Program-made: the position numbers and the translations under genes
The notes under the pieces: generated by a model
Database searches by the model: none
The model's input: only the letters and a program-made list of their open reading frames with translations
Told to the model about the DNA's origin: nothing
In this document: piece by piece, positions 59,578 to 62,044 of the stretch
How the letters are laid out: each line of letters opens with the position of its first letter
How positions within the stretch are numbered: position 1 is the first letter of the stretch
Origin: Streptomyces sp. A012304
Lineage (GTDB): Bacteria; Actinomycetota; Actinomycetes; Streptomycetales; Streptomycetaceae
Reading direction: 5' to 3'
Length of the DNA: 64,000 nucleotides
Assembly (NCBI RefSeq): GCF_026008495.1
Contig: NZ_BQUN01000003.1
Location: 62,001 to 126,000 of the forward strand

Positions 59578-60533
59578 GCCCCGCGCACCTCCTCCGCCAG
59601 CGCCAGCGCCTCCTGGGCCATCCGCGCGGTGGCGTCGATGTCGGTCATCATCAGCGGGACGGCGCGGCAGCGGATCCCGGCGGCCTCGACCCGCTCCACG
59701 GTGCCCGCGTCGACGGTGTCGACGAGCCAGCCGTCGAGGAGGCCCGAGCCGTAGTGTTCGGCGACCGCGGCGGCCGTCGACTCCACGCCGACCGCCGCGA
59801 GCACCTTGTCGGCCATGCCGCGCACGGGCGCGTCCCCGACGATGGGGGACAGGCCCACCACCGGCACCCCGGCCTCGGCGATGGCCTCCCGGATGCCGGG
59901 CACGGCCAGGATCGTGCCGATGGAGACGACCGGGTTGGACGGCGGGAAGAGGACGACGTCGGCCTCCGCGATCGCCTCCAGCACCCCGGGCGCGGGCTTG
60001 GCCTGCTCCGCGCCGACGGGCACGATCGCCTCGGCCGGCACCGACGCCCGCAGCCGCACCCAGTACTCCTGGAAGTGGACGGCCTTGCGTTCGCCGTCCA
60101 CCTCGACGGCGACATGGGTCTCGACGCGGTCGTCGGTCATCGGGATCAGCCGCACGCCCGGCTGCCACCGGTCGCACAGCGCCTCGGTGACCGCGCTGAG
60201 CGGATACCCGGCGCCGATCATCTGGGTCCGCACGATGTGCGTGGCGAAGTCCCGGTCGCCCAGCCCGAACCACTCCGGCCCGACGCCGTACGCGGCGAGC
60301 TCCTCCTTCAGATGGAAGGTCTCGTCGGACCGGCCCCAGCCCTGCTCCTCGTTGATGCCGCCGCCGAGCGTGTACATCACCGTGTCGAGGTCCGGGCAGA
60401 CCTTCAGCCCGAAGAGGTGGATGTCGTCGCCGGTGTTGCCGATGACCGTGATGTCCGCGTCCGGCACGGCCCGCTTCAGACCGCGCAGGAACCGGGCACC
60501 GCCGATGCCGCCTGCCAGAACCACAATGCGCAT
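59574..60533 (-). CDS. fbiA: phospho-lactate/enolpyruvate transferase for coenzyme F420 (CofD/FbiA)
   Basis: 319 residues. It joins Fo to the phosphoenolpyruvate- or lactate-derived moiety, forming (dehydro)F420-0. Motifs: [84 protein letters not shown] and [20 protein letters not shown] leaderless start is likely: on the minus strand CAGACT (60541-60546) lies seven nt before the ATG at 60533. Coupled to fbiB; fbiC and fbiD are not in the window. Confidence 0.94.
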
Positions 60534-60567
60534 GGGGGCAAGTCTGGCAGGCGGGTACGACAACGCG

Positions 60568-61059
60568 TCACGCGCTCACGGTGGTCGCCGAGCACTGGAA
60601 GGAGTGCACGGGCATCTCCGTGAGCCCCGGGTAGTACACGTGCAGGCTCACGGCCGGCTCGAGCGCGTCGTTGACGACCTCGTGCACGTACCCCGGCGCG
60701 AAGACGCGCTGCGCGCCCGCGCCCAGCGCGCGCGTGCCGCGCTCGGTGCGCTCGGTCAACGTGCCCTCCAGGACGGTGAGGACACCGGAGGAGCGTCCGT
60801 GGCCGTGCGGCCCGCTGCCCTGGCCCGGCACCCAGGACAGCAGCCACACCTCGTAGCCCGGTCCGGTGCGCAGCCGGTGGTACCAGCGGCTGGTCGCGTC
60901 GTAGCGGACCAGGTGCTCCCACGCGGAGCGGTCGGCGGCGATGGAGCGGGCCAGGCCGACGAACTCGGCGACGGTCGCCGGGTGCTCGCGCGGGGCCTGG
61001 AGGAGGTGCGGGACTTCGAGGATGTCGCCGGCGATCTGAAGGTCGCTGTCGCTGTTCAT
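60568..61059 (-). CDS. cysteine dioxygenase
   Basis: 163-residue cupin of the bacterial CDO family. Oxidises L-cysteine to cysteine sulfinate with Fe(II) and O2. Iron ligands sit in GSGPHGHGRSSGVLTVLEGTLTER (HxH) and the distal His in GYVHEVVNDALEPAVSLHVYYPGL. YEVWLLSWVPGQGS begins the cupin barrel. Start: the ATG at 61059 (MNSDSDLQIAG) with GAGGAA 11 nt upstream. The frame is open for a further 89 codons to a GTG at 61326, but that segment is low-complexity and overlaps the Cys-rich leader peptide in another frame. Expression is probably controlled by that leader. Confidence 0.88.
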   Translation of the reverse strand: MNSDSDLQIAGDILEVPHLLQAPREHPATVAEFVGLARSIAADRSAWEHLVRYDATSRWYHRLRTGPGYEVWLLSWVPGQGSGPHGHGRSSGVLTVLEGTLTERTERGTRALGAGAQRVFAPGYVHEVVNDALEPAVSLHVYYPGLTEMPVHSFQCSATTVSA

Positions 61060-61216
61060 GGAGTGCGTGGTTCCTCGGGGAAGGAGCGGAGGAGTGGGGG
61101 GCTGGTGTCGCGTACCGCCGCCCGGGTCACGGGCGGGAGGAATGCCCGGGTCGGGGCGGGGAACAAGCAGCCGAGTCGCGGTGGACTCAGGGGAGGTCGG
61201 CCGGAGCGCTATGGGC

Positions 61217-61312
61217 TCAACAGCCGGAACAGCAACAACAGCTACAGCGAGCACGGGCAGCACCGTGGGACCCGGCGGTGCGGGTCGAGGTGAGCGCCAA
61301 GTTCGCGAGCAT
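61217..61312 (-). CDS. cysteine-rich leader peptide (31 aa), attenuator-like
   Basis: 31 codons from the ATG at 61312 to the TGA at 61217-61219, upstream of cysteine dioxygenase on the same strand, 157 nt before its ATG. The first 22 residues are unremarkable (MLANLALTSTRTAG then SHGAARAR); the end is CSCCCCSGC, six Cys in nine residues at positions 23, 25-28 and 31. Five of these Cys codons are TGT, the minor codon in high-GC Streptomyces. A TTGACA/TGTCCT promoter ends seven nt before the ATG, so translation is probably leaderless. Ribosome stalling at the Cys run when Cys-tRNA is low would set the RNA fold before the cdo start. Function is inferred; no protein role is implied. Confidence 0.72.
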   Translation of the reverse strand: MLANLALTSTRTAGSHGAARARCSCCCCSGC

Positions 61313-61319
61313 GCCCACA

Positions 61320-61348
61320 AGGACACCGGTTCACACCTCCGCTGTCAA
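61320..61348 (-). promoter_or_regulatory. promoter of the leader peptide-cysteine dioxygenase transcript
   Basis: On the minus strand TTGACA (61348-61343), 17 bp, TGTCCT (61325-61320), then seven nt to the A of the leader ATG at 61312. The -35 is consensus; the -10 is weak. Confidence 0.55.
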
Positions 61349-61675
61349 CTCGACAGCCGGCATGTGGGACCGGTTCACCTCATCCGGTTCATCTGTCAGG
61401 TGAAAGGTTTGTGCACATGGCTGCCGGGACACATGGCGCACAAGCCGGGCGCGCAAGCCTCGTTGTCATCCCGTGATCCGACTGTGATCCGGTTCGCTTC
61501 CGCGCACGTGTCGGAACGGGATCGAACCCGTGGGCGTCCTTCCCCTTAGAGGCGCCGCGCGGGCCGGGAGCCCTCCGGGACCCCAGCTGCGTGTCAAGGT
61601 ATATGGCGATTTGAGTACTTAACGCACGCCCTTGGTTCCGCAGAGTGAATAAGGGGCTCAATAGCAGATCTCGGC

Positions 61676-61705
61676 TTGACTCGCCCGGAGCAGCACACTT
61701 GTAAT
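61676..61705 (+). promoter_or_regulatory. candidate whiB promoter
   Basis: TTGACT (61676-61681), an 18-bp spacer, TGTAAT (61700-61705), about 75 bp upstream of the whiB ATG. The upstream gap 61349-61675 contains no gene; an AT-rich patch with GAGTACTTAACG lies at 61613-61624. Confidence 0.5.
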
Positions 61706-61780
61706 TTCACTCGTGTCGTTCAGCCGCAATCGGTAACGGCCACGTCACGGGGACGCGAAAAGACAGAGCGAGGGGCGCAC

Positions 61781-62044
61781 ATGACCGAGCTGGTGCAGCA
61801 ACTGCTGGTCGACGACGCGGATGAGGAACTCGGCTGGCAGGAGCGCGCGCTGTGCGCCCAGACCGACCCCGAGTCCTTCTTCCCCGAGAAGGGCGGCTCC
61901 ACCCGCGAGGCCAAGAAGGTCTGCCTCGCGTGCGAGGTCCGCTCCGAATGCCTCGAGTACGCCCTCGCCAACGACGAGCGCTTCGGCATCTGGGGCGGCC
62001 TGTCCGAGCGGGAGCGCCGCCGGCTGAAGAAGGCGGCCGTCTGA
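61781..62044 (+). CDS. whiB: WhiB, iron-sulfur transcription factor of sporulation septation
   Basis: 87 residues. The 4Fe-4S cluster ligands are C25, C48, C51 and C57 (CxxC at 48-51, then x5-C), followed by the GIWGG turn (69-73) and the basic C-terminal RERRRLKKAAV. The length and the sequence LGWQERALCAQTDPESFFPEKGGSTREAKKVC match developmental WhiB itself rather than other Wbl proteins. WhiB works with WhiA to stop growth and start septation in aerial hyphae (established knowledge). The ATG at 61781 has GAGGGG 5 nt upstream. Confidence 0.93.
   Translation: MTELVQQLLVDDADEELGWQERALCAQTDPESFFPEKGGSTREAKKVCLACEVRSECLEYALANDERFGIWGGLSERERRRLKKAAV

Follow-up and report, generated by a model that had tools for sequence, protein, structure and literature searches.

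The window analysed here, a stretch of 64,000 nt from Streptomyces sp. A012304, carries on its minus strand, at 60568..61059, a gene encoding a protein of 163 aa that belongs to the cysteine dioxygenase type I family (PF05995, 64.7 bits for a cut-off of 23) and is called cdo below. Its product fits the PF05995 profile, has the metal-ligand His pattern of cysteine dioxygenase type I, and matches cysteine dioxygenases from the PDB, with E-values down to 1.2e-9. The Arg that binds the carboxylate of cysteine is Arg60 in the rat enzyme; the window protein has an Arg (YHRL) near this site, but the alignment does not place it there. A second cdo, located elsewhere in the genome, encodes a more typical member of the family (164.6 bits). 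Reading of the sequence places a Shine-Dalgarno-like (SD) GAGGAA ahead of the window cdo, at 61071..61076 (minus strand). Upstream, a WhiB gene (61781-62044; product of 87 residues, PF02467) lies on the opposite strand. Downstream, cofD, a gene of F420 synthesis (TIGR01819), starts 34 nt past the cdo stop (60533-60568, minus strand); if cdo and cofD are co-transcribed, any control exerted by the leader described below might extend to cofD.

The cdo upstream ORF and its putative promoter

A short ORF of 31 codons, MLANLALTSTRTAGSHGAARARCSCCCCSGC, extends on the minus strand from an ATG at 61312 to the end of a TGA at 61217. The peptide terminates in RCSCCCCSGC, the Cys codons being in order TGT TGT TGT TGC TGT TGT (5/6 TGT), and a gap of 157 nt separates this upstream ORF (uORF) from the cdo ATG at 61059. 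The ORF, its tail, its codon usage and its distance to cdo had all been described in the original prediction and are confirmed in the sequence. The Cys run (TGT AGC TGT TGT TGC TGT TCC GGC TGT; 61220..61246, minus strand) is also recognized through in-frame Cys counts across relatives. In the window, TGT is a rare codon, with 12 TGT versus 104 TGC in 41 long ORFs, which were chosen by composition. Only two of the 280 ATG ORFs of 12-50 codons found in the whole window have at least 3 Cys within their last 10 codons and, among its 46 TTGAC sites, a single one, that of the uORF itself, is followed by an ATG at +36/37. The peptide encoded by the window uORF matched no NCBIfam or Pfam family, including NF042933 and NF042934, and an Rfam search over 60900-61800 gave no match at E 1 or better.

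The uORF is probably leaderless. A -35-like TTGACA lies at 61343..61348 (minus strand), the ATG of the uORF being 36 nt from its first T, and the spacing between TTGAC and this ATG is kept in 136 of the 141 Streptomyces regions compared; from this conserved spacing, we infer that the transcript would start at the uORF ATG. In the -35/-10 pair proposed initially, the -10-like TGTCCT (61320..61325, minus strand), to which letters similar by eye are seen in many relatives, is a poor match to the consensus, and a consensus promoter scan of 60500-61800 returned 0 promoters. Farther from the uORF, at 61371-61410 and 61471-61490 (minus strand), AAACCTTTC then CCGGATGAGGTGAACC are encountered, plus GGATCACAGTCGGATCACGG farther up, and the three are also found by eye upstream of TTGAC in other Streptomycetaceae. 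The putative promoter is flanked by GTGAACCGG-like repeats.

Conservation and codon choice

A cdo match was detected in 292 of 295 Streptomyces genomes, and the upstream DNA was read for 146 Streptomyces cdo loci (L003-L148), corresponding to 141 distinct regions. A uORF was accepted when an ATG ORF began 24-47 nt from TTGAC and encoded at least one Cys in its last six residues, the start at 36-37 nt being taken in the seven loci that offer two candidate starts. Such a uORF was found in 136/141 distinct regions. The distance from the first T of TTGAC to the ATG is 36 nt in 107 of these 136 uORFs and 37 nt in 29, and every one ends with TGA and carries three or more Cys among its last 10 codons, the total per uORF being 3 to 7. 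In a further sample of 80 named genomes, some of them shared with the first set, 79 possess an ORF that starts at 36-37 nt and whose last 10 codons include three or more Cys; in the remaining genome (L280), an ORF is seen by eye at 35 nt.

As for the Streptomyces exceptions, L119, L122 and L144 keep TTGAC and lack the uORF, L088 keeps the ATG with a tail that appears degenerate by eye, and L110 could not be resolved. The leader before cdo is short in L119, L122 and L144, and the first residues of cdo differ there too (MDND, MNND); these natural deletions would be of use as controls.

In the other genera of Streptomycetaceae, the uORF was found in 33 of 35 loci, each time with three or more Cys among its last 10 codons; of the two exceptions, L167 runs into a contig end and L176 has no uORF. 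The latter is a second cdo-like copy in its genome (G588), whose other copy (L177) does have one. The body of the uORF in these genera is 41% identical to that of the window in an ungapped comparison, and the Cys run before the stop persists. The mean number of in-frame Cys in the last ten codons is 4.96 in Streptomyces and 4.24 in the other genera, versus 0.01-0.09 out of frame. Outside the family, the few loci examined (L149, L150, L186-L190) have no such Cys run; by eye, L150 has short ORFs resembling NF042934 leaders, and a similar short ORF in L189 reaches 17.6 bits, below the cut-off of 27. An alignment of the region upstream of cdo had been proposed together with the original prediction: the Cys run is kept both in Streptomyces and in the related genera, in the proportions just given. 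By the window counts, the uORF stands above chance, and its conservation across relatives establishes that this Cys-run leader of a cysteine dioxygenase gene is real.

Codon choice in the uORF favours TGT. TGT:TGC amounts to 555:142 in the Streptomyces uORFs, versus 0:51 in the portions of cdo examined in those genomes, and to 107:61 in the uORFs of other genera. Concerning the body (codons 2-22, 80 sequences), an omega-like ratio (amino-acid-changing to silent differences) of 1.06 of the unconstrained expectation was obtained with a rough and noisy measure, for which control frames gave 1.19 and 0.60, and third positions are no more variable than first and second ones. Selection on the peptide body, which was considered, is not supported by this ratio. 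In our reading, the residues of the body are not what is conserved, and the Cys run is maintained as codons across genera.

Predicted RNA pairings around the uORF stop and the cdo start

Two hairpins are predicted from covariation in an alignment of 78 leaders, all of them of the long-spacer class and from the main Streptomyces clade. The first one, P1 (CGGCUGUUGAGC / GCUCCGGCCG), spans the stop codon of the uORF at 61198..61226 (minus strand; window coordinates derived from the L003 alignment row), its first arm lying in the last codons and the stop; 95.2% of its cells are paired and A-U is replaced by G-C in 10 sequences. The second one, P2 (CUGAGUCCACCGCGACUCGG, then CUGCUUGUUC; 61171..61190, minus strand), resembles a terminator and was also picked out by a terminator scan; it is 85.5% paired and 4 of its 5 pairs have changed on both sides, the two outer pairs reaching 78.9%. 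Taken together, the 17 pairs are 90.6% paired, and sliding the partners by 1 to 3 columns lowers this figure to 17-40%. Of five covariation measures, three lie above every shuffle; the two others, the number of double-change pairs and the further pair types, do not exceed every shuffle. A small hairpin within the Cys run shows little covariation. Furthermore, folding around the stop is somewhat stabler than that of shuffles, with a mean z of -0.96 in Streptomyces (n=136) and -0.68 in other genera (n=33); for the 60 nt preceding the stop region, z is +0.55 and +0.47, respectively.

These hairpins raise the question of transcription attenuation, in which RNA polymerase would stop at P2, or at a Rho site within the C-rich spacer, depending on the speed of uORF translation, an explanation compatible with either sign of control. 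P2 is the sole terminator-like site found in 60500-61800 and it covaries, spacers of more than 40 nt contain on average 48% C and 24% G, and the published effect on SCO3035, in the part of PMC4991794 used here, is at the RNA level. However, one terminator-like site where 0.6 are expected is a weak argument, P1 and P2 share no bases, so that no mutually exclusive terminator/antiterminator pair was found between them, and the spacer from uORF to cdo varies from 42 to 302 nt across relatives. Attenuation is considered somewhat less likely than not.

A second type of pairing brings together the Cys run and the start of cdo. RNAalifold pairs the run with AUGAACAGCGACAGCGAC (61042..61059, minus strand) in two sets of sequences (78 and 19), and the support for this partnership is mixed. 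In Cys codons -4, -5 and -6, the third base agrees with the letter that it would face: codons -4 and -6, opposite A, are TGT:TGC 117:6 and 111:10, and codon -5, opposite G, is TGC in 67 cases versus TGT in 7. In a synonymous-codon test, the native duplex outperforms 190 or more of 200 randomisations in 107/136 leaders, a result biased towards pairing because U can pair with A as well as with G. The modal pairing register is the best one in 95/136 (0.876, versus 0.73 and 0.69 for the in-phase slides of -6 and -3).

In favour of the pairing, Streptomyces tails reach -29.0 with a typical clade A start, versus -22.7 for tails of other genera; with a clade B start, the values are only -20.3 and -19.0. 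Against it, when tails are swapped within clade A, the main clade, the native one does as well as or better than 59% of the others, and clade A starts are paired more strongly by the tails of clade B (-29.5) than by those of clade A (-23.7). In the other genera, whose cdo start letters differ, no general advantage of the tails in pairing with their own cdo start was seen. The slides, the tail swaps and the clade B result weaken the idea of the Cys run and the cdo start as a co-adapted helix. In the same way, pairing with the cdo start as the explanation of TGT is weakened, TGT being enriched also in genera without such pairing. On these predictions, the pairing may be restricted to Streptomyces. 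In 19 short-spacer relatives, the GAGGAA of cdo is predicted to pair with an upstream GUUCCC. Family-wide conservation could be shown for no pairing that hides the ribosome-binding site of cdo, a feature for which the original prediction suggested looking.

The duplex bears on two readings of the Cys run. According to the first, the run would not sense Cys-tRNA at all: the uORF would only load ribosomes, or the run would be kept for its RNA pairing with the cdo start. The RNAalifold helix in two sets and the matching third bases of codons -4, -5 and -6 are in its favour, but the run persists in genera with other cdo start letters and without a general pairing advantage, the last Cys codon, which lies outside the pairing, is TGT in 125/136, and Cys codons abound in frame while being nearly absent out of frame; this reading is unlikely. 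According to the second, the run would be sensor and switch at once in Streptomyces, stalling the ribosome and acting as the antisense of the first cdo codons, so that Cys shortage would open the start and cdo would belong to a Cys-starvation regulon, which we consider quite improbable.

Relation to known Cys leaders and direction of control

The likeness to the Cys leaders of mycobacteria that was put forward at first is supported, and the Cys-run uORF ahead of cdo is conserved. As in the mycobacterial leaderless poly-Cys ORFs (Ms5788A, NF042933), a short ORF lies apparently at the transcript start, with its Cys near the end and a cysteine-metabolism gene downstream, and the Streptomyces cdo uORFs have the Cys run close to the stop by which the mycobacterial leaders are recognized. 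The differences are that the enzyme encoded downstream is here a cysteine-degrading one and that a covarying hairpin is present at the stop. For the mycobacterial poly-Cys ORFs, Canestrari et al. 2020 reportedly proposed that stalled ribosomes free the downstream ribosome-binding site. In the sections of PMC4633059 referred to here, Cys-run ORFs are described before cysA2 and nirA, the cysA2-linked one being occupied by ribosomes in M. smegmatis and cysteine dioxygenase not being named there, and a passage of PMC9031893, citing earlier work, states that the elongation speed of the ribosome depends on Cys availability. The sections of Seliverstov et al. 2005 (PMC1262725) used here present Cys leader peptides for the cys operons of Mycobacterium and P. 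acnes and for the cbs gene of B. longum. They share with the cdo leader Cys codons near the stop, the lack of a clear terminator and a pyrimidine-rich spacer, Rho being suggested; the difference is that these sections report none for Streptomyces or for cysteine dioxygenase. Similarly, the list of 8 leaders for S. lividans in the portion of PMC8079986 considered includes none for cdo. Within the open-licence literature searched, the Cys-run leader of cdo is apparently undescribed and would add an apparently unnamed leader family. Whereas Cys-run leaders are known ahead of cysteine-making or salvage genes, this one is found family-wide ahead of a cysteine-destroying gene.

Other Cys leaders are present in the genome, where NF042934 (cis_reg_atten) leaders above the cut-off occur at five sites. 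The genes that follow are of cysteine-synthase, second cdo, sulfite/nitrite-reductase, flavin-reductase and sulfurtransferase types, assignments that are at family level (NCBIfam below curated cut-offs, some from partial sequences; Pfam for the second cdo). The cysteine-synthase-type fragment begins about 0.65 kb past its leader, so that a small gene may intervene. The leader of the second cdo (G000:C17, L192), VTDTCVRLWRRVHMDLVRYAGCVCRPSC, is of the annotated type, scoring 37.1 bits with NF042934 (cut-off 27) and 17.9 bits with NF042933 (cut-off 45), and 14 of 20 related loci have a recognizable copy of it. A Cys-coding leader thus precedes each of the two cdo paralogues present here.

It is likely that the cdo uORF senses Cys-tRNA. 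The reading that we favour, tentatively and with a probability of roughly 0.45, is that of a cis-acting, probably leaderless uORF in which slow decoding of Cys raises the expression of cdo, that is, with the ordinary sign. Through the Cys run, which lies directly before the stop, the speed of the ribosome would report the supply of charged tRNA-Cys to cdo expression. Slowing of the ribosome within the run would keep the run and the first arm of P1 unpaired, which would make the cdo start more accessible, and a shortage of Cys-tRNA would thus give more cdo, with the same sign as in the leaders of sulfur-assimilation genes. The final step could be translation start or transcription past P2, and we lean towards translation start.

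The original prediction had proposed the reversed sign: with ample Cys, the ribosome would reach the uORF stop and cdo would be on, whereas at low Cys it would stop early and cdo would be off. Metabolic logic speaks for this reading, which suits a degradative enzyme; conversely, the destruction of Cys being switched on at low Cys is metabolically odd, and this counts against the ordinary sign. TnaC, the leader of tryptophanase, in which arrest occurs through the nascent peptide plus free Trp, offers a precedent of a degradative operon switched on by its substrate. It likewise precedes a degradative gene for the amino acid that is sensed, but it needs the nascent peptide, whereas no constraint was seen on the body of the cdo uORF. 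Furthermore, a ribosome at the stop would mask the first arm of P1, while at the first Cys it leaves this arm free.

The folding of 136 Streptomyces leaders was modelled with a ribosome held in place at the first Cys or at the stop. Without ribosome, the region of cdo from -15 to +13 has a mean modelled openness of 0.444; this value becomes 0.535 when the ribosome stands at the first Cys and 0.507 when it stands at the stop. Relative to the free RNA, a ribosome at the first Cys opened this region in 100/136 models and closed it in 6; compared with the stop position, it left the region more open in 76/136 and less in 34, which argues against the reversed sign. However, a ribosome at the stop leaves the modelled AUG and SD on average slightly more accessible, as the reversed sign would have it. 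Mean openness is 0.623 (free), 0.646 (first Cys) and 0.691 (stop) for the AUG, and 0.225, 0.215 and 0.234 for the SD; compared with the first-Cys position, the stop position exposes the AUG more in 69/136 models and less in 42, and the SD more in 44/130 and less in 26. These effects are modest and partly contrary, and such models do not settle the sign.

Expression studies in other Streptomyces provide further indications. SCO5772 is presumably the second cdo of S. coelicolor. SCO3035 is likely the counterpart of the window cdo, given that its number is next to that of SCO3034, identified as whiB in the part of PMC4255298 cited, and that a whiB gene neighbours cdo here. In S. coelicolor exposed to 0.15 mM H2O2 for 2 h, SCO3035 and SCO5772 rose 6.54x and 8.00x together with the genes leading from sulfate to cysteine, according to the portion of PMC4991794 drawn upon, and this speaks in favour of a single sign for all these genes and against the reversed one. 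The same portion indicates that the induction depends on HbpS-SenS-SenR, so that it may act at the promoter. In a feather medium compared with LB, two Streptomyces cdo genes were up 50.2x and 8.3x (PMC7181669, in the part cited). This rise, which can be put to the credit of the reversed sign, is compatible with induction by excess Cys and can be read either way; the two media differ in many ways, and that part of PMC7181669 does not state which paralogue is cdo1.

Because genes of Cys-assimilation type and the second cdo alike have NF042934 leaders in this genome, and because of the H2O2 data, the reversed sign is not supported and is considered unlikely, and the ordinary sign appears more likely, mainly from the company of the leader and one expression study. 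The cdo leader makes the sign of control by Cys leaders testable and questions the cellular role of these thiol dioxygenases.

The kinship between the cdo uORFs and the NF042934 leaders was addressed with a profile of seven NF042934-type leaders of this genome. The NF042934 leaders lie here before sulfur-type genes and the second cdo; the HVDLxR core of NF042934 is absent from the Streptomyces cdo uORF. Five of 169 cdo uORFs scored 8.7-13.5 bits, the best of 2000 shuffles reaching 7.5. All five come from two other genera and share an LRR-ASALC-like core, and no Streptomyces cdo uORF rose above the shuffles. A common origin of the cdo uORFs and the NF042934 leaders would thus be plausible, through these two other genera only. 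Finally, two NF042934-like leaders scoring below the cut-off (L196 and L197) precede a ROK-family gene and a 2OG-Fe(II) oxygenase gene, which are perhaps further sulfur-responsive genes.
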